Assembly (NCBI GenBank): GCA_030835405.1
Contig: JAURPG010000034.1
Coordinates: forward strand, 1 to 39,509
Source: Gammaproteobacteria bacterium
GTDB lineage: Bacteria; Pseudomonadota; Gammaproteobacteria; Eutrophobiales; Eutrophobiaceae
Direction of reading: 5' to 3'
Length of the DNA stretch: 39,509 nucleotides
Translations under genes and position numbers: made by a program
The notes under the pieces: model-generated
What the model was told of the DNA's origin: nothing
Databases searched by the model: none
What the model saw: only the letters and a program-made list of their open reading frames with translations
Shown here: positions 29,485-39,509 of the stretch, piece after piece
Position numbering within the stretch: the stretch's first letter is position 1
Layout of the letters: each line of letters begins with the position of its first letter

Positions 29485-29610
29485 TATGTTGTCCTTAGTG
29501 TTTTGGGCTTTGAGTTGTTGACTAAATACGATTAACTATATTTTATTATTTTTGTATTGAGCACTGATATACCATCAGTCTATGGCAATTTATCAATTTG
29601 GGGAACTGAC

Positions 29611-30267
29611 GTGAGAGCAATGATACTGGCAGCTGGCAAGGGAGAGCGTATGTTGCCATTGACCAGAAGCATGCCTAAACCTCTCTTGCAGGCTGGTGGC
29701 AAGGCATTAATCGAATACCATATTGAATCCCTCAGTCGCGCGGGCATTACTGAAATTGTCATCAATACGGCTAAATTCGGCAACAAAATCGAAGCCTATC
29801 TTGGTAGGGGCGATCAATGGCGAGTCGATATACAGTATTCCCATGAGGGCGATGAACCGCAGGGTACAGGCGGTGGGGTACAAAAGGCATTACCATTAAT
29901 AGGTAAGGGTCCGTTTGTGTTGATAAATGGTGATGTCTGGACGGATTACAATTTTAAGGCACTAATAAGGGACTATAATTCACTTATCCATCTGGTAATG
30001 GTTAAAAACCCGCCACAACATTTACAGGGTGATTTTTGCTTGCGACACAATCGTGTACGGTTAACTGGTGGGGACCGGTATACCTATAGTGGAATCGGGG
30101 TATTTTCGTCTGAATTTTTTGCCCTTCCAGACAACTCAATGTTTTCTTTTGTCCCAGAACTAAGGTCCGCGATCAGTCGGGATCAGGTCTCAGGTGAGCT
30201 CTATAGCGGTCAGTGGGATGATATTGGGACGCCGGAACGGCTAGATAAACTCAATGCCCGGCTATAA
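29611..30267 (+). CDS. murU: N-acetylmuramate-1-phosphate uridylyltransferase (MurU-like nucleotidyltransferase)
   Basis: MurU makes UDP-MurNAc from MurNAc-1-phosphate and UTP in the cell-wall recycling route found in Pseudomonas. The 218 residues start AMILAAGKGERMLPLTRSMPKPLL, the sugar-nucleotidyltransferase signature with catalytic Arg and Lys. TGGGVQKALPLIG and LINGDVWTDYNF are diagnostic for the MurU branch. GTG at 29611 is preferred because GGGGAA lies upstream and the product then begins like MurU; an in-frame ATG at 29557 would add 18 residues. The kinase amgK, its usual neighbour, is absent here, so another sugar-1-phosphate substrate is possible. Confidence 0.85.
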   Translation: MRAMILAAGKGERMLPLTRSMPKPLLQAGGKALIEYHIESLSRAGITEIVINTAKFGNKIEAYLGRGDQWRVDIQYSHEGDEPQGTGGGVQKALPLIGKGPFVLINGDVWTDYNFKALIRDYNSLIHLVMVKNPPQHLQGDFCLRHNRVRLTGGDRYTYSGIGVFSSEFFALPDNSMFSFVPELRSAISRDQVSGELYSGQWDDIGTPERLDKLNARL

Positions 30268-30441: not shown

Positions 30442-32592
30442 TTGCGAAAATACATCATCTCACCTGTTGCACTCTGTTCTACAATCGGTCTAATTGTTGG
30501 CCTTTGTGTTCTCATATCCCTGTCGCACAACCAGTCTCCACCGTCCGTTTCTGCCGTTGAGCCTCAGCGCCATGGGCTGCAAGTTGATTCCAGCACTAAC
30601 AACCAATCATTAAAAGTCGAGGCCGGGGGTAAAATTCGTGTGTTGAGACTGCGGCAGTCAATCAATGACTTGTTAGATAGAAAAGAAAGGGCGTTGTTGG
30701 ACATCTACGCAGAATCTGTTGGTCGCCAGCTCCAATGGATGACGGCCGTCAGCCAGGAAGCTGCCATTCAAATGCTTCAGGAAGGCCAGGCTGACCTGTT
30801 TGCCACACTGGACGAAAAAAATGCGGTAATGTTCGAAAATTCTCTTTTATTGACCATGCCTTTTGCCATATCAAAGCAGCAGGTAATTGGTCGGGCAGAC
30901 AGTAATGTAAATGATGCCACAATAAACCTGACTGTAAGACAGGTGGCGGTTAAAAAGTCGTCTCCATCCTGGGGCCAGTTATCCACGCTTGCAAGGGATT
31001 ATAAGACAATGGAATTACTGGTCATCCCTGAACATACGTCAGTTGAGTCAATTTTACACAGAGTCAAGACCGGCCAATATGACCTTGCTGTCATGGATAG
31101 TCTCGAATTACCCGAAGACCTGGAATTCAGGCATAGCCTTGAGATAGTCCTAGATATTTCGGATGAGTCTTTTCTGAGTTGGGGTGTCTCACACAATAAT
31201 TATGAGCTTCATACATCAATTAACCAATTTTTGTCAAAAAAAGGACTGGAATCAGAAATTGCCAGAAGCTACAAAGATGATTTTCCCCAAATTAAACAAC
31301 GCAAGCTGCTCAGGGTTATTACTTATCAAAGCCCCGTTAATTATTATTATGAAAATGGCAGGCTGAAAGGTTTCGAATACGATCTGGTTAACAAATTTTC
31401 AGAACACCATGGTCTAAGACTGGATGTGGTGGTTGCAGAGAGCCAGGAACAAATGCTCTCCTTATTGAATGAAGGCAAGGGCGATATCATCGCTGCCTCA
31501 GTTCCGGAATCAACCTTCAGCAACAAAAATAGTTTAAAACTGAGTCAGCCGTATAACTTTGTATCGCCGGTACTGGTGGGCAGGGGTGACGAACAGATTC
31601 TGGATGTTAGAGATTTGGCCGGCCGGACAATTCATCTATCCATGGAGAGTCCTTATGCCAGAATGCTATCAGAATTGAGAGAAAGGACAGGGGTAAACTT
31701 TTCATTAGAACAGTCCAGTGCTGGTACAAATAATGAAGCGATACTATATAGAATTGCCCAGGGTAGATACGATCTTACAGTTCTGAGCAGTCACGAGGCA
31801 AAGGCAGAACTGTCGCGCCAGATAGATTTGACAGCCCTGGTGACTCTGGACGAACCCAGGCCACTTAAGTGGGTTGTCAGGGATTCAAACACTCAATTGC
31901 TTAGTTCTATTAATGAGTACCTCAAGGATGAATACCGTAAGGGGTTTTATAATGTTATCCATGCCCGATACATAGATAAACCTGATGTAAGAATATTTAA
32001 CTCCAGCCTGATTGCGGGCACAGAGCAATTATCGCCTTATGATGAAATTGTTCATAAGTATGCCGATCTTTATGGCTTTGATTGGAGGTTGGTTGTTGCC
32101 CAGATGTATCAGGAAAGCAGGTTTAACCCCCATGCAGTATCGTATGCTGGTGCTGAAGGGTTGATGCAAATACTGCCGCAAACGGCGGAAATGATTGGCG
32201 TGACTGATTTGCGTGATCCGGATGCAAATATCAAGGGTGGACTCAGTTACATGCATCATATTCATAACCTGTTTGAAGATTCGCTAACTGTGGAAGACAG
32301 GACCTGGTTTACCCTGGCTTCATATAATGCAGGCTATCGCAGGGTGCAGCGCGCACGCAAACTTGCTGAATCTATGGGTTTGAACAAAAACACCTGGTTT
32401 AATAATGTTGAAATTGCCATGCTCAGAATGGCTATCCCCAGGCAATATAATGGATACACGGTGCGTCAATGTCGTTGCGGACAGGCCGTTGTATACGTTA
32501 GAGAAATTCGCACCTTGTACAATAATTACCTGAGGCTGACCAAAATCGCTAAAGCGGCCTACCGAGAACAGGTGCATAGCGATGAGAGCTAA
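30442..32592 (+). CDS. Membrane-bound lytic murein transglycosylase with two solute-binding-protein domains (MltF-like)
   Basis: This periplasmic peptidoglycan-cleaving enzyme of 716 residues is longer than MltF (about 518). It has an N-terminal signal or anchor helix (CSTIGLIVGLCVLISLS) with no obvious lipobox. A first solute-binding family 3 domain (about 63-280) is followed by a second, more canonical one (about 287-515, RVITYQSPVNYYYENGRLKGFEYDL). The SLT domain (about 533-680) has catalytic Glu558 in MYQESRFNPHAVS, then EGLMQILPQTAEMIGV and TLASYNAGYRRVQRA. The start is TTG at 30442 with GGAG seven bases upstream. The duplicated sensor part may bind muropeptides or amino acids. Confidence 0.88.
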   Translation: MRKYIISPVALCSTIGLIVGLCVLISLSHNQSPPSVSAVEPQRHGLQVDSSTNNQSLKVEAGGKIRVLRLRQSINDLLDRKERALLDIYAESVGRQLQWMTAVSQEAAIQMLQEGQADLFATLDEKNAVMFENSLLLTMPFAISKQQVIGRADSNVNDATINLTVRQVAVKKSSPSWGQLSTLARDYKTMELLVIPEHTSVESILHRVKTGQYDLAVMDSLELPEDLEFRHSLEIVLDISDESFLSWGVSHNNYELHTSINQFLSKKGLESEIARSYKDDFPQIKQRKLLRVITYQSPVNYYYENGRLKGFEYDLVNKFSEHHGLRLDVVVAESQEQMLSLLNEGKGDIIAASVPESTFSNKNSLKLSQPYNFVSPVLVGRGDEQILDVRDLAGRTIHLSMESPYARMLSELRERTGVNFSLEQSSAGTNNEAILYRIAQGRYDLTVLSSHEAKAELSRQIDLTALVTLDEPRPLKWVVRDSNTQLLSSINEYLKDEYRKGFYNVIHARYIDKPDVRIFNSSLIAGTEQLSPYDEIVHKYADLYGFDWRLVVAQMYQESRFNPHAVSYAGAEGLMQILPQTAEMIGVTDLRDPDANIKGGLSYMHHIHNLFEDSLTVEDRTWFTLASYNAGYRRVQRARKLAESMGLNKNTWFNNVEIAMLRMAIPRQYNGYTVRQCRCGQAVVYVREIRTLYNNYLRLTKIAKAAYREQVHSDES

Positions 32593-32616: not shown

Positions 32617-33579
32617 CTATCGTAAGGCCTTTTGACGTAATAATCTCCATAAGACTTTAAAGCCTAATAGTACAGGGTACTTTTTTAACGCCGGCGTTAT
32701 CTCTATCACTATTCCGGTATGCCTGTTGATTTTCCATACTGCATATTCAACACAATCATGAAAAGTAAATGTGGCCTTGATTAAGCGCAGGATAGATAGC
32801 AATTTTCCCTGCCAGCTTCTTATCTGCCAATAACGCTTATACTTTTTTGAGTCTGCATCCTTACAGTTTATTTCAAATTCATACGAGCCTTGAATTGGAC
32901 GAATACAAGCAAGGCAGGGTAGTGCCGCATTGGTAATTTTTTGTAGATCTTCCATTGACTCAGTGACTATTTCCTTGCTGCGGCCCTCAGGCTCCGGTCT
33001 CAATTCTGCGGCGTAGGAAAGACTCAGGGCATTTGTCCAGAGCTCTACGGTTGTATATCTTCCGTTACCTAACACTGGGGTGGTTTCGTTTAAATAACGC
33101 ACCACGGACCGACTAAGACCCAAATAAAATAAATTCTTAGCTTGATTATTTTTTGAGTAGATTAGCCTGACGGGCTGGGCAAACCTCGCCCATATATATG
33201 AGTGAAACCATTCATTAATGCCTTTTTTATAATCCTTTTCTGACAACACCGCATACTTGGCCCTGAGTATTTCTTTACCTGTATCGGCTTCTATATAAAA
33301 CACATTAGGCGCAAGTAATTCATTGAGTAGAGGGTAGAATTTACTTTTATAAGCATCTTTATAGTTATTAACAATGATATAAAAGTCCAGCACCCCGTCT
33401 GTGAAATTATTAGTCCTGAGGCAAGAGCCATAAAGCAAAATGAGACTGATCATATCTCCATATTGAGCATGTAACCTGGATGTCAAAGCAGACAAGTCAT
33501 AGTCAATGTTTCTTTCACATTGACTTTTCAGTTCAGTATCCAGGCCAACCAGTTGGGCGTTTTTATTGAATTGATTCAA
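32617..33579 (-). CDS. Nucleotidyltransferase-fold protein resembling Tam41-type CDP-DAG synthase
   Basis: This soluble protein of 320 residues resembles the mitochondrial Tam41/MMP37 family, which makes CDP-diacylglycerol from phosphatidic acid and CTP. The start of the nucleotidyltransferase fold is ILLYGSCLRTN (Gly51, Ser52) followed by GVLDFYIIV, with one aspartate (65) in the Tam41-style xxDFI position instead of the usual DxD. AKYAVLSEKDY, then WFHSYIWARFAQPVRLIY, matches the family's KYGV and AGRxxKPV region. It is 21 bases after the lipid-kinase gene and last in a five-gene run, so its likely substrate is the kinase product. The assignment is from motif recognition and needs a profile search. 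Confidence 0.6.
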   Translation of the reverse strand: MNQFNKNAQLVGLDTELKSQCERNIDYDLSALTSRLHAQYGDMISLILLYGSCLRTNNFTDGVLDFYIIVNNYKDAYKSKFYPLLNELLAPNVFYIEADTGKEILRAKYAVLSEKDYKKGINEWFHSYIWARFAQPVRLIYSKNNQAKNLFYLGLSRSVVRYLNETTPVLGNGRYTTVELWTNALSLSYAAELRPEPEGRSKEIVTESMEDLQKITNAALPCLACIRPIQGSYEFEINCKDADSKKYKRYWQIRSWQGKLLSILRLIKATFTFHDCVEYAVWKINRHTGIVIEITPALKKYPVLLGFKVLWRLLRQKALR

Positions 33580-33600
33580 GGTGGTTTACTATGATTGAAT

Positions 33601-34554
33601 TCATGGCACGATAAATGTTACCGGCGGTGAGGCGGATATCTTTATGGTGTTTATGTCTTGTAAATGGAAAATTTCTCCGTCAATTATATAGTAACCTTTA
33701 AAGCTCAAATCCAGGCATTTGCTGTCCTTGCTGATATAACCATCTTTTTCTTTTAAATGTACTCCGCGATTAGTGATGATCTTGTACAAAGATCGCCATA
33801 ATTGTTTTGCCGATGATTTAATTAGTGTAACGTGTAGCGGAGATAAATTTACACCCCAGTAGGGCTTGAGTCCAAACAGCAGGCGGTCTAATGTTGTTGC
33901 GAATAACACGGTGACATTGGTTTCATTCCTGTGCTCATCATCAATAATGAGCCCGCCAATTGATTGTCTGAGTTCGTTGTCATTCGGTGAAAAAAACAAT
34001 TTCAGCAAGTAAGGTGCTGCGGCGACAGCCGAAATCAATTCGCCAGTAACACCAGACTTTTTTACGTGCTGGTTAAAATAATTCACTGTACTGGCAATGG
34101 CACCCATGCCGAAAAAGAACCCGTAGTGGATATGCCCGTCTTGAGTAACAAGCTTAATCAACGATCTGTTTATTAATTTTCCAGATATCTCGTCATTGAT
34201 AAAAGCGGTTAAAAAATTCAGGCTTTTATTAATCCCCCGGATTCCAAGGTCCGTGGCGGTCATATTCGTCGTGCCGCCGGGAATCAGGATAATATTAGGT
34301 AATTTATGCTTTGGAAAATTGTTAAGCCAATAACTGAGGGCGGACTGCACCGTGCCATCTCCTCCAAATATTATCAGGTGTGTTATCTTTATATCGCTAA
34401 AATTTTCCAGCGCCGATATAAATTCTGAAGGTGATGAGGGTTCCCTGATGATTAATCCAGGAATTGCGGACAAGGAATTTCGTATGTGGTCAATTTGCTT
34501 TTTAATCTTTCCGCTTGCGGGGTTTAGCAACAGACCGAATTTATGATTTTGCAA
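33601..34554 (-). CDS. Diacylglycerol-kinase-family lipid kinase (DAG, ceramide or related lipid)
   Basis: This predicted soluble or peripheral lipid kinase has 317 residues. The DAGK catalytic domain opens LLLNPASGKIKK and holds the ATP-binding LIIFGGDGTVQSAL (GGDGT at 64-68) and IPGGTTNMTATDLGI (92-106). A C-terminal beta-sandwich ends with YYIIDGEIFHLQDI, the usual YegS/BmrU-type layout. It lies 26 bases after lptG and 21 before a Tam41-like gene. The bacterial ceramide kinase CpgB of Caulobacter belongs to this fold. With a ceramide-synthase-like gene in the same run, ceramide is a reasonable candidate substrate, but diacylglycerol cannot be excluded. Confidence 0.82.
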   Translation of the reverse strand: MQNHKFGLLLNPASGKIKKQIDHIRNSLSAIPGLIIREPSSPSEFISALENFSDIKITHLIIFGGDGTVQSALSYWLNNFPKHKLPNIILIPGGTTNMTATDLGIRGINKSLNFLTAFINDEISGKLINRSLIKLVTQDGHIHYGFFFGMGAIASTVNYFNQHVKKSGVTGELISAVAAAPYLLKLFFSPNDNELRQSIGGLIIDDEHRNETNVTVLFATTLDRLLFGLKPYWGVNLSPLHVTLIKSSAKQLWRSLYKIITNRGVHLKEKDGYISKDSKCLDLSFKGYYIIDGEIFHLQDINTIKISASPPVTFIVP

Positions 34555-34580: not shown

Positions 34581-35645
34581 TTAATTTACCCTGCTTAACC
34601 ATAGTCTTGATGCCCAGATCAATGTCGTTCCAGGCGCCAGGGCAACCAGCAGCGGGTTGAGATCCAGAAGCAGGCCTGCATTAGAAAAAATCTGGTCAAG
34701 CAGATAGACAACAATGCCGGTAACGCCAGCCATCACCAGACGATTTGCAAACCCGGTTCTTACCGAGCCAATGACAAACGGAACAGATAACAAAAGCATG
34801 CCCAGCATGGTGAGGACTTCGCCTACTTTTCTCCACAGCGTAAGCTCATAGACATCAGATTCCTGCCCAGTATTATCCAGGTACTTGATATAGTTAAATA
34901 GCTCTATGGGCGACAGACTCTCGGGTTGCTTGGTCAGAGTCGATATCTGATCGGGCTCAAGAAAGGTCTCCCATAACATGCTGTTGGTTCGTGATGAGAT
35001 GATTTCACTGTCAAGGATCAGTTTACTTGTAACATTGTACAAGGTCCATTCATCATCGCTGACAATTTCAAAGCCCTCTGCCGAGATATATTCTGATACC
35101 GAGCCGTCCTCATCGAGATTAATAATTTCAACGCCTGCAGTGGCGGTATCATGTTGAAGGTTTTCAATTCGAATAATGTGCTGATCATTTCTGGACCATA
35201 TCCCAAGATCAGAGCCGGCAACGGTACTTTGATCCAGCGCAGCTGCCCTGAATGCAATGGCGCGTTGTTGCAGGTTGGGGGCAACAACAAACTCAAGAGC
35301 AATTATCAGCAGCACCAGTAAAAAACCTACTTTCAGAGAGGCTGAGCTGATGTCCAATGCAGAAAAGCCTGCACTTCTCAATGAAATGAGTTCAAGGTGG
35401 ACAGCCAGCCGCCCGAGGGCAGTCACATTACCCATCAGTGCGATAAAAGGAGCAAGTTGTATAAACCTGCGTGGCATGGTTAATAATACATAAATGAAGG
35501 CATCTTCTGTTTGATAAAAGCCGGTTCCCACGTCATCCAGTTGTTCCACCAGGTCCAGAAAGCTGAATAATGGGATTAATACCAGGGTAGATACGACTAT
35601 ACCCATAGAAATCTGCTTCATCAGATACTGATCTAGTATTCTCAT
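34581..35645 (-). CDS. lptG: LPS export ABC transporter permease LptG
   Basis: LptG is one of two permease subunits that extract LPS from the inner membrane with LptB. From the ATG at 35645 it has 354 residues. MRILDQYLMKQI and the first membrane helix match LptG, followed by LGRLAVHLELISLRSAGFS (the coupling-helix region). A periplasmic jellyroll and NYIKYLDNTGQESDVYELTLW with YLLDQIFSNAG at the C-terminus complete it, all typical of LptG rather than LptF. This ATG overlaps the lptF stop by four bases. A longer frame from 35723 would run further into lptF and is not favoured. Confidence 0.95.
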   Translation of the reverse strand: MRILDQYLMKQISMGIVVSTLVLIPLFSFLDLVEQLDDVGTGFYQTEDAFIYVLLTMPRRFIQLAPFIALMGNVTALGRLAVHLELISLRSAGFSALDISSASLKVGFLLVLLIIALEFVVAPNLQQRAIAFRAAALDQSTVAGSDLGIWSRNDQHIIRIENLQHDTATAGVEIINLDEDGSVSEYISAEGFEIVSDDEWTLYNVTSKLILDSEIISSRTNSMLWETFLEPDQISTLTKQPESLSPIELFNYIKYLDNTGQESDVYELTLWRKVGEVLTMLGMLLLSVPFVIGSVRTGFANRLVMAGVTGIVVYLLDQIFSNAGLLLDLNPLLVALAPGTTLIWASRLWLSRVN

Positions 35646-36715
35646 CGCGATTGCAATAATTTTTGGACTTTTGGTGAAAAGATCAGAAATACCGCAATTA
35701 GCATAAGCAGATGTAACCACCAAACTCCCGGGAATCTCGGAACCAGTCCTTGTTCAACCCAGGTCTGTGCCAGGCCGCTTAAATTATAATAGATAGCAAA
35801 GATAACGGCCGCGGCGATAATTTTTTCGCTTTTGCCCTGTCTGGGGGACGACCTCGCCAATGGAATTGCAACCATGGCCAATAATATCGTTGAAAAAGCC
35901 CTGGTAACTCGCCACTGAAATTCGGCAATATCCTGGGTGTCTTCTGAAAAATTCAAATCCAAAGTCGATGCGGCCTTACGTTGATAGTCTCGGGCGATTT
36001 CCGGGCTGGGCATATAGACAAAGCGGGAAAACTTGATGATTGAGTCCCGGGTCGTTGAGCGGTCCATCCTGTACATATGCCCATCAAGCAGATGCAGTTT
36101 CGGGGGAGAATAGTCTTCCGCTGGCTCTTGGAAACCCTGCTTGGCAATAATGATATCGCTGGAGCTGTCCTTCCTCATGTAATGAAACACGCCTTGCAGG
36201 TCGGCATCATTGTTGCTCAATTTATTTTCTATATAGATGATGCTATCGCTTTGTTCGTCTCCATAAAAGCGTCTGGCCTGATAGCGGGAAACATCCAGCT
36301 GGGTGCTGGTACTCTCGTCTAGCCGGTAGATCATTTCATAGGCCCAGGGCCTGCCAAATATCGATAATAGGCCGACCATGATGCCGATGGGAATACATAG
36401 ATTGAGTATATTTTTAACAATAAAATTTTCGCTAATACCTGCTGATTTTAGGACAATCACTTCCTGATCCCGGTGTAATCTTCCAAGAGCAACAATGATG
36501 GCGGCGTACAGTGCTATTGGAAACAGGACCTCCATGGCGATAATGGTCTTTAAAATAATTAATTTTGTAATTAATACCATGCCCAGGGTTTCGGTGACTG
36601 TCTCTGCGAGATAGCGAGCCGCATTGAAGCTGGTAAATAACCCGGCAAGGATAAAACTGACCACCAAAAACGGCTTCAGTATTTCCATGGAGATGTAAAT
36701 ACTCAATCTGTTCAT
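35642..36715 (-). CDS. lptF: LPS export ABC transporter permease LptF
   Basis: LptF is the second permease of the LptB2FG extractor. The 357 residues have three N-terminal and three C-terminal membrane segments around a periplasmic jellyroll. Family features are ALGRLHRDQEVIVLKSAGIS (coupling helix) and LLAMVAIPLARSSPRQGK, matching the conserved VPLxxxxPRQGR stretch of LptF. It overlaps lptG by four bases. Upstream on the same strand, only 33 bases away, is an acyltransferase-like gene in place of pepA, which lies divergently beside lptF in many Gammaproteobacteria. Confidence 0.95.
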   Translation of the reverse strand: MNRLSIYISMEILKPFLVVSFILAGLFTSFNAARYLAETVTETLGMVLITKLIILKTIIAMEVLFPIALYAAIIVALGRLHRDQEVIVLKSAGISENFIVKNILNLCIPIGIMVGLLSIFGRPWAYEMIYRLDESTSTQLDVSRYQARRFYGDEQSDSIIYIENKLSNNDADLQGVFHYMRKDSSSDIIIAKQGFQEPAEDYSPPKLHLLDGHMYRMDRSTTRDSIIKFSRFVYMPSPEIARDYQRKAASTLDLNFSEDTQDIAEFQWRVTRAFSTILLAMVAIPLARSSPRQGKSEKIIAAAVIFAIYYNLSGLAQTWVEQGLVPRFPGVWWLHLLMLIAVFLIFSPKVQKLLQSR

Positions 36716-36748: not shown

Positions 36749-37915
36749 TCAATTGGGATTAATCTCTTTTTCATAGATTCTGTAACGTTTATATTCATAA
36801 GCTAACAGGTTTTTCAGCATGCTTCGCATGCCTTTATTGTTGTCCAGGATCCAGGAGGCCTCCACACCTTCTATGCCTGAGCCGACAACCGGGTCACGAG
36901 CCTCCACACACATCATGTATGCCATCGCCATGCCAATAGGACTGTTTTGATATTCTTTACGCACTCCCATTAATGGAATTCTGCCCGTTTTAATATTATT
37001 TTTTCGTGTTGCACGTAAAATCTTTAACCACCCAAATGGAAGTAAACTGCCATTAAGTTCAGTTAATAATTCATTTAAATTCGGTAGCACCACCAGAAAC
37101 GCTGCAGGCTTTTGGTCAATTTCTGCTATTTGAATATAACCCTCCGGCACAAAAGGTTTAAGACCGACACCAAGCTCGGCAAACTCTTCCTTACTAAACG
37201 GGATAAATCCCCAATTGTTTGACCAGGCATCATTGAATATGTCCCGCATTAATTCCAGTTCCTGCTTAAAATTATTTTTTTTAAGCGGCCTGATTTGTAA
37301 CTTTTTGCCGTAGCGCTTCACCAGTTTACCCATAACCGGGTTTTCGCCAAATACTTTTGACTCCATCCAGTAAGCAAGCATGTCCATTGCCGGTCGATAC
37401 CCCTGGCCTTCGATTAAAGGTCCATACCATTGTCTGGAATGTGGCATCAGTACGGAAGGTGGAGTATCAAACCCTTCCACCAGGACCCCACACTCCTGGT
37501 TAACGGAAAAATTAAATGGCCCGGTAATATAAGTTATACCACTGTTTTTCAGCCATACTTCAACGGAGTCAAATAATTTTTTAAAGACCTCAGGATCATT
37601 TTCGGCATCAATAAAACCAAAATGACCACTATGGTCCCCATAAAATTTTTGATGAACCGTATCAATCTGGGCAGATATCCTGCCCACCGGGGTGTTGTTT
37701 CTGTAAGCCAGCCAGGCTTGCCATTTGGCGTTTTTCATGTAGGAATTGAAAGATGACAAGTGCAGCCTTCGTTCAAGTTTAATCGGAGGCACCCAAAACT
37801 TATCATCTGCGTATATCTTCCAGGGGAGATCAATAAATTTTTGCAAATCCCCTCTGGAAGTCACGGGTTCAACCCGTACGGGGGAGACAATTTCATTACC
37901 GGTGTCTGTTATCAC
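36749..37915 (-). CDS. GNAT-fold acyltransferase resembling bacterial ceramide synthase (bCerS-like)
   Basis: This cytoplasmic protein of 388 residues contains a GNAT-type fold. Recognisable stretches are FIDLPWKIYADDKFWVPPI near the start, VGRISAQIDTVHQKFYG, GVLVEGFDTPPSVLMPHSR, IFNDAWSNNWGFIPFSKEE, PFGWLKIL and RIPLMGVRKEYQ. These fit my memory of the family that includes the Caulobacter bacterial ceramide synthase, which N-acylates a sphingoid base. It is first in a run with lptF, lptG, a lipid kinase and a Tam41-like gene, and divergent from a fatty acyl-AMP ligase; both contexts favour lipid acylation. The family is broader than proven ceramide synthases, so the substrate is inferred. 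Confidence 0.65.
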   Translation of the reverse strand: MITDTGNEIVSPVRVEPVTSRGDLQKFIDLPWKIYADDKFWVPPIKLERRLHLSSFNSYMKNAKWQAWLAYRNNTPVGRISAQIDTVHQKFYGDHSGHFGFIDAENDPEVFKKLFDSVEVWLKNSGITYITGPFNFSVNQECGVLVEGFDTPPSVLMPHSRQWYGPLIEGQGYRPAMDMLAYWMESKVFGENPVMGKLVKRYGKKLQIRPLKKNNFKQELELMRDIFNDAWSNNWGFIPFSKEEFAELGVGLKPFVPEGYIQIAEIDQKPAAFLVVLPNLNELLTELNGSLLPFGWLKILRATRKNNIKTGRIPLMGVRKEYQNSPIGMAMAYMMCVEARDPVVGSGIEGVEASWILDNNKGMRSMLKNLLAYEYKRYRIYEKEINPN

Positions 37916-38298: not shown

Positions 38299-39509
38299 CT
38301 GATCTCTAAAATAAGTAAAATAAGTGCAACCGCAACTGATGCAAGTGGTGATCAGCATACTGATAAAGAGCAGGTTGAATTAACGCCCACGGTGACACTC
38401 AATACCCAGTCCAAGCGCCTGGGTGATTTTGAGACGTTAACCGATGCTTTGGAATATGCTGCAACCGGTGAAACCGGTTACAATTTTTATGATGCACGCG
38501 GTAACCTGACATCAGTACTCGGCTATGCAAAGTTGCAACATAACGCGAAGCAGACTGCCAGGCGGCTTATGGGCCTGGGTCTTCAGCGCGGCGAGAAGGT
38601 TGCCATCATTGCAGACACAACCCCTGAATTTATAACCCTGTTCTTTGCGTGCAGGTATGCTGGTGTTGTGCCTTTTGCTATGCCTGTTCCAGTAAACCTT
38701 GGTAGTCATGACGTTTATGTTAAGCAGTTAAGTGGCATGATATCCGTTGGCAACGCTAGCGTAGCAATAGCAAACAAAGAATATATTTCATTTCTTGAAG
38801 AAGCTGTCGAAGGACTCGATAGCATTCGTTGGATAGGAACCCCAGAGACGCTGGACGAAACTCCTGAATCTGATCAGGATATTGTCAGGAACCAGCAGGA
38901 TGAAGTTGCATACCTCCAGTTTACTTCCGGCAGTACGCGCGCGCCACAAGGTGTTGTAGTTACAGAACATGCTGTGATGAGTAATTTACGCGGCATTGTT
39001 CGTGATGGCCTGAGAATGTATGAAAACGATCGATGTGCCTCATGGTTGCCTTTCTATCATGATATGGGTCTGATCGGCCTGGTGTTATCACCACTGGTCT
39101 CCCAGATGTCGGTGGACTTTTTAAGGACCAGGGATTTTGCCGTCCGGCCAATTCAGTGGCTAAGATTAATCAGCCGTAATAAATGTACCATAGCGTTCTG
39201 CCCGCCATTCGGACTGGAGCTCTGTGCAATGCGTGTTAGAACAGCAGACCTGGAAGGTCTGGATTTGAGTAGCTGGCGCGCTGCAGGAATCGGTGCTGAA
39301 ATGATCAACCCGGAAATACTCAAGGCATTCGCAGAAAGATTTAAACCAGTCGGATTTAACCCGGATGCATTCCTGCCTTGTTATGGTCTGGCCGAAGCCT
39401 CCCTCGCAGTGTCTTTCTCAGAAGTGGGTAGCGGCGTTGAAGTCATGAAGGTTGATACAGAAGCATTGGCAGACCGTGGCGTTGCTGTAAGAGTTGAAGC
39501 TGATTCCAG
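38299..39509 (+). CDS. Fatty acyl-AMP ligase (FAAL-type AMP-binding enzyme), 3' end cut by window
   Basis: This enzyme activates a fatty acid with ATP to acyl-AMP and normally hands it to an acyl carrier protein. The frame is open to the last base, giving about 403 of the usual 550-600 residues. Visible motifs are the phosphate-binding LQFTSGSTRAPQGVVV, the FAAL-typical SWLPFYHDMGLIGLV, IAFCPPFGLEL and PCYGLAEASLAVSF. The start is unclear. After a stop at 38293 there is no in-frame ATG until well inside the domain. A CTG at 38299 has GGGAG eight bases upstream; a GTG at 38392 has no ribosome site. Divergent to the bCerS-like gene, it could supply acyl-ACP for sphingolipid synthesis. Confidence 0.88.
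   Translation, partial: MISKISKISATATDASGDQHTDKEQVELTPTVTLNTQSKRLGDFETLTDALEYAATGETGYNFYDARGNLTSVLGYAKLQHNAKQTARRLMGLGLQRGEKVAIIADTTPEFITLFFACRYAGVVPFAMPVPVNLGSHDVYVKQLSGMISVGNASVAIANKEYISFLEEAVEGLDSIRWIGTPETLDETPESDQDIVRNQQDEVAYLQFTSGSTRAPQGVVVTEHAVMSNLRGIVRDGLRMYENDRCASWLPFYHDMGLIGLVLSPLVSQMSVDFLRTRDFAVRPIQWLRLISRNKCTIAFCPPFGLELCAMRVRTADLEGLDLSSWRAAGIGAEMINPEILKAFAERFKPVGFNPDAFLPCYGLAEASLAVSFSEVGSGVEVMKVDTEALADRGVAVRVEADS

Follow-up and report, generated by a model that had tools for sequence, protein, structure and literature searches.

The window (the whole stretch of DNA analysed here, 39,509 nucleotides in length) is one entire contig (C14) of a 2.8-Mb genome that was assembled in 136 contigs. 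In addition to a kdsC–lptC–lptA–lptB–rpoN run, from which the DNA can be read as gammaproteobacterial, it carries at its right end an operon of five minus-strand genes that encode, in gene order, a protein of the ceramide synthase (CerS) type, LptF- and LptG-family permeases, a lipid kinase and a Tam41-like nucleotidyltransferase. The first two genes lie 33 bases apart, the lptF and lptG genes overlap by 82 bases, the kinase gene follows lptG after 26 bases, and 21 bases separate it from the Tam41-like gene. The reading frames of these last two genes lie on the minus strand where a sequence-only reading of the DNA had placed them, and both start with TTG. The ceramide-synthase-like gene that the same reading had noticed in the run is the first gene of the operon. 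The features on which the analysis is based are as follows.

32617–33579, minus strand: Tam41-family nucleotidyltransferase of the CpgC (CC_1161) type, proposed ceramide-1-phosphate cytidylyltransferase (PF09139, predicted-structure matches, invariant residues)
33601–34554, minus strand: two-domain lipid kinase (DAGK_cat) of the CpgB (CC_1160) type, proposed ceramide kinase (PF00781 at 48.3 bits, GGDGT, fold, Tam41-like neighbour)
34581–35723, minus strand: LptG-family permease (TIGR04408, 293 bits)
35642–36715, minus strand: LptF-family permease, overlapping lptG (TIGR04407, 296 bits)
36749–37915, minus strand: protein of the bacterial ceramide synthase type (CerS, CC_1154), at the head of the operon (gene order as for CC_1154 in a Roseomonas plasmid; present in 75 of 100 Tam41-like loci)
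38392–39507, plus strand: fatty acyl-AMP ligase (AasR type), divergent from the operon and truncated by the contig end (PRK09192, 547 bits)

Another contig of the assembly (C104) opens within the aasR ligase gene, which is followed there by cerR, acpR and spt. The genome encodes CerS, AasR, CerR, AcpR and Spt, the products of all five ceramide genes known from Caulobacter, and its Spt is 74% identical to that of a congener. The LptF/LptG pair of the operon is one of two in the genome, the second being on contig C10. Outside the operon, the gene at 29557–30267 was counted as CpgD-like in an initial cluster tally and then rejected; NCBIfam identifies it as MurU (score 269.7, cut-off 250), and it stands apart from the CpgD group. 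The gene at 30442–32592 encodes an MltF-like lytic transglycosylase with two solute-binding-domain matches, which at 716 amino acids exceeds the usual length of MltF.

A Tam41 homologue and its kinase neighbour

The 320-amino-acid product of 32617–33579 is a true Tam41 homologue by Pfam, sequence and fold. PF09139 was the sole Pfam family matched (25.8 bits, above the cut-off of 24), and the best PDB sequence match was Tam41 of S. pombe (6ig2; E = 0.0015 with the single sequence and 8.5e-05 as a profile). An AlphaFold model (pLDDT 92.4, pTM 0.88) shows the two-domain fold of Tam41, a nucleotidyltransferase (NTase) domain with a winged helix, and all of the first five places in a Foldseek search with this model were taken by Tam41 structures. 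VIA-align matched it to Tam41 from a Firmicutes bacterium (FbTam41, 7ecd) with Z 19.9 over 229 residues (rmsd 2.9) and to SpTam41 (6ig4) with Z 17.4; both matches span two domains (218–229 residues), compared with Z 9.0 for the next-best family, whose match is confined to the NTase domain. The resemblance to Tam41 that had been proposed from the sequence was thus borne out by structure prediction, which put Tam41 on top and did not indicate a different nucleotidyltransferase subfamily. It is barely credible that the protein is a non-lipid nucleotidyltransferase, of the aminoglycoside, MNT or tRNA type, that lies in the operon by chance: the NTase domain is common to these families and gives matches of up to Z 9.0, but the Tam41 matches extend over both domains, Pfam and sequence concur, and relatives fuse the Tam41-like protein to a lipid kinase.

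The YGS motif, lone aspartate and W-x-R-F-x-Q-P motif picked out by the sequence-only reading proved to be invariant in 51 diverse homologues, in which Y50, G51, S52, D65, P91, W130, R132, F133, Q135, P136, Y189, E192, R194 and E196 do not vary and K108 has one exception. Yeast Tam41, when aligned, has matching YGS, Asp, Lys, Arg-Phe-x-x-Pro, Tyr and Arg positions. D65 is followed by F or L and then by Y or F in nearly all of the 51 homologues, leaving one acidic residue at this site; a lone active-site acidic residue, in place of the usual three of NTases, is a Tam41 trait (PMC11646218). The C-terminal part (residues ~251–290) is also conserved, with W251, R265, T272, Y279, K283, R286 and H287 invariant in the same set. 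This segment (~W251–H287) runs past the alignment with yeast Tam41, which ends at residue 251, and, as judged from the aligned homologues, it marks the family of the window protein.

The protein shares with Tam41 (6ig2/6ig4 and 7ecd) its domains, the lone Asp, the conserved Lys and the Arg-Phe-x-x-Pro and Tyr/Arg positions, but is about 18–20% identical to it, has a conserved C-terminal segment of its own and belongs to a family that is tied to ceramide genes and not to cardiolipin synthesis. The substrate of characterized Tam41 enzymes is phosphatidic acid. The family ranges over Alpha-, Beta- and Gammaproteobacteria, Nitrospirota, Desulfobacterota, Gemmatimonadota and Calditrichota. Among its members, one reading frame of 456 amino acids (L010, G114:C45) has a different C terminus, and in another locus (L105) the gene is divided between two frames.

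The neighbouring kinase (317 amino acids) belongs to the DAGK family, as had been read from its GGDGT motif: it matches DAGK_cat (PF00781) with a score of 48.3 bits (cut-off 23.6), has GGDGT at residues 64–68 and is predicted to adopt a two-domain lipid-kinase fold, for which sphingosine kinase 1 (SphK1) and DgkB/BmrU-type kinases are the best PDB matches. Seventeen of its positions are invariant in 35 homologues. It shares the fold and the GGDGT motif with the SphK1, DgkB and YegS kinases, but identity in the structural match is 11–19%, and it was assigned to the CpgB-type group by operon context. Its domain and motifs are those of the CpgB type; the translated protein has one Cys only and does not contain the CxxxCxxC motif of eukaryotic CERK.

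Related loci and the Caulobacter pathway

Across 100 related loci, a set in which some genomes were sampled twice and many loci come from one genus, the kinase gene is directly upstream of the Tam41-like gene on the same strand in 90, and LptG (86), CerS (75) and a CpgA-type gene (66) are frequent neighbours; in 8 loci no kinase was found on the stretch analysed, some of these stretches being short. The adjacency of the two genes is therefore not a matter of chance. In the congeners and in other gammaproteobacterial loci (among them L044, L046 and L124–L126), a gene of the aspartyl/asparaginyl beta-hydroxylase family lies just downstream of the Tam41-like gene; it is missing from that place in the window, and its product might act on the acyl chain. 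One of these loci (L046, CAMBTO010000001.1) is a metagenome contig titled Klebsiella pneumoniae, a title that looks wrong, as its content is that of the genus of the window. A near-complete cluster of ceramide and head-group genes (L179) is located on an IncP-typed plasmid, pPNP1 of Pseudomonas sp. JS425, together with a class 1 integron integrase and sul1, a location that suggests horizontal spread.

On the Roseomonas plasmid p546-2 the order is CpgD, CofC, CerS, LptF, LptG, HIT, metallophosphoesterase, CpgA, kinase, Tam41-like, Spt and AcpR. This order, which is also that of one further genome (G008), is the order of CC_1152–CC_1163 in Caulobacter, and it places the Tam41-like gene, which on p546-2 bears a hypothetical-protein annotation, between the kinase gene and spt. 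The window retains the kinase neighbour and the linkage to ceramide genes, not the full CC_1152–CC_1165 order. Caulobacter was not among the 80 loci returned by a named-genome scan for Tam41-like relatives, and PF09139 gave no match in the C. vibrioides control genome, an absence of little weight given that the model brings just 11 of 34 homologues to E 0.01. On the basis of homology and gene order, the pair in the window appears to be the counterpart of cpgB–cpgC (CC_1160–CC_1161, ccna_01218–ccna_01219). In each, a lipid kinase adjoins a Tam41-type protein within the same complement of genes for ceramide, Lpt proteins and head groups, the order of which is shared in the intermediate genomes. 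The loci differ in that, in the genus of the window, the pair shares an operon with lptF, lptG and cerS, and that this genus is without CpgA, CpgD, CofC-type and metallophosphoesterase genes near the pair.

What had been read as a new route matches a known part of the Caulobacter ceramide-phosphoglycerate (CPG) pathway. The ceramide kinase activity of CpgB has been assayed (PMC10331486). CC_1161 (CpgC), which carries a CDP-DAG-synthase InterPro domain, is required for CPG and CPG2, and ceramide is moderately increased in a cpgC mutant (PMC11324152). Subsequent papers, from 2025 and 2026, draw CpgC as the converter of ceramide-1-phosphate to CPG and term its mechanism unidentified (PMC12275187, PMC13228409). 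The sequence-only reading had held that CDP-ceramide is not an established bacterial intermediate. This stands as far as the term is concerned, as a literature search for bacterial CDP-ceramide found no paper that uses it, but the idea has a precedent: formation of an NDP-activated ceramide from ceramide-1-phosphate via CpgC was suggested in 2024 (PMC11324152).

Ceramide versus DAG as the lipid of the pair

In 11 loci of Nitrosomonas and relatives, isolates included, the kinase and the Tam41-like protein are fused in a single reading frame of 664–708 amino acids (L068, L073, L076, L078, L079, L080, L082, L084, L085, L086 and L092), with the GDGT motif of the kinase, the WARFAQP motif of Tam41 and the C-terminal motifs all intact. 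When two enzymes are fused, the product of one is usually the substrate of the other. In a phylum sample of 398 genomes, the Tam41-like protein is present in 27 and ceramide synthase in 43, and all 27 are within the 43; the hypergeometric probability of this co-occurrence (4e-30) ignores shared ancestry and therefore overstates the significance, but there were no exceptions in the sample. The co-occurrence, the conserved locus and the fusion together point to ceramide, ceramide-1-phosphate and CDP-ceramide. Because every sampled genome with the Tam41-like protein carries a ceramide synthase, ceramide is strongly favoured over diacylglycerol (DAG), as the sequence-only reading had preferred, and the fusion indicates that the Tam41-like protein probably acts directly on ceramide-1-phosphate and yields CDP-ceramide.

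Plain DAG recycling, in which the kinase would make phosphatidic acid and the Tam41-like enzyme would convert it to CDP-DAG, is by comparison highly improbable. It has in its favour that DgkB-type kinases make phosphatidic acid, that CDP-DAG synthesis is the known activity of Tam41, one bacterial enzyme included (PMC11646218), and that a separate CDP-DAG synthase, CdsA (PF01148), had no match in the assembly of the window, for which completeness is given as 100%. The search for CdsA, which had been proposed as a check, gave a different result in relatives: the gene is present in all four congeners and in 48 of the 53 genomes of the family, which argues against DAG recycling and indicates that its absence here is probably an assembly gap. 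A concatenated Frr–UppS–Dxr query had no match in the assembly either (as a combined query only), and the cdsA stretch may be missing. A role for the Tam41-like protein as the sole CDP-DAG synthase was considered and dropped, as CdsA also occurs in all four congeners. Beyond the ceramide synthase found in 27 of 27 genomes, DAG recycling is opposed by the Caulobacter counterparts: the kinase phosphorylates ceramide (PMC10331486), and loss of cpgC abolishes phosphosphingolipids (PMC11324152).

Proposed head-group activation and transfer

We consider it fairly probable that the pair forms the core for head-group activation in a bacterial phosphosphingolipid pathway that proceeds via ceramide-1-phosphate and CDP-ceramide. 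For its substrate, product, head group and role in export we infer the following. The CpgB-type kinase would phosphorylate ceramide to ceramide-1-phosphate, and the CpgC-type Tam41-like protein would transfer CMP from CTP onto the phosphate, yielding CDP-ceramide and pyrophosphate, in parallel to the chemistry of Tam41 on phosphatidic acid. A transferase of the CDP-alcohol type could next replace CMP by an alcohol, which in CPG-producing organisms would be glycerate or phosphoglycerate, and LptF and LptG from the operon may assist in moving the product to the outer membrane.

Neither the window nor the four congeners have CpgA, CpgD, CofC-type or metallophosphoesterase genes near the pair, and several further loci in alpha- and betaproteobacteria likewise have the core only. 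As these loci are without the CPG2 genes, the kinase/Tam41 pair is the core and the second phosphoglycerate is an addition. The sequence-only reading had proposed a search for a CDP-alcohol phosphatidyltransferase near homologues; a CpgA-type gene is found in 66 of the 100 loci, but none lies near the pair in the genus of the window. Four PF01066 CDP-alcohol transferases are encoded in the genome: PgsA, PssA, a protein of 370 amino acids in an apparent polysaccharide region and a protein of 219 amino acids on contig C29. The last has the best score against the CpgA profile, 38 bits compared with 206–658 bits for most cluster copies. None of the four is of the CpgA type, and the complete CPG2 gene set was not found in this assembly of 136 contigs, in which a gap is possible.

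A second reading of the pair has the Tam41-like protein itself as the CPG synthase, activating ceramide-1-phosphate with CTP and coupling it to glycerate or phosphoglycerate without build-up of free CDP-ceramide. We regard this as unlikely, although several observations are consistent with it: in the Caulobacter papers CpgC is placed at the step from ceramide-1-phosphate to CPG (PMC12275187, PMC13228409), no CDP-alcohol transferase is needed for CPG among the reported mutants (PMC11324152), the genus of the window has no CpgA-type gene near the pair, and much of the conserved C-terminal part (~251–290) is beyond the Tam41 alignment. The predicted fold, however, is that of a plain cytidylyltransferase. 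We know of no Tam41 that performs a second transfer. Returning to activation through CDP-ceramide, we tentatively extend it, with somewhat less than even confidence, to a Tam41-derived, ceramide-dedicated family that makes free CDP-ceramide and that, in this genus without CpgA, may feed another head group, for example through PssA, PgsA or the orphan transferase on C29.

In the known routes to complex sphingolipids, it is the head group that is activated or transferred. If the proposed pathway is correct, bacteria activate the lipid itself as CDP-ceramide, in parallel to CDP-DAG. Recognition of CpgC as a member of the Tam41 family that is fused to the kinase in Nitrosomonas provides a testable mechanism for an unexplained step of the pathway. 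The 2024 hint of an NDP-activated ceramide was already in print; new here are the test by structure, the fused proteins, the co-occurrence with ceramide synthase and the genus that keeps the kinase/Tam41 core without neighbouring CPG2 genes.

Two further loci of the genome encode nucleotidyltransferases. On contig C31 (L169, 8278–9831), a CofC-type nucleotidyltransferase, a relative of CC_1153, is fused to an HAD-IB phosphatase; this gene is not part of the sphingolipid operon and lies at a distance from it. Contig C133 (L170, 10539–15163) carries genes for a PEP mutase–NTP-transferase fusion, phosphonopyruvate decarboxylase, 2-aminoethylphosphonate transaminase and a second, free-standing NTP-transferase, which likely constitute a route to CMP-aminoethylphosphonate, a conceivable source of an alternative lipid head group.
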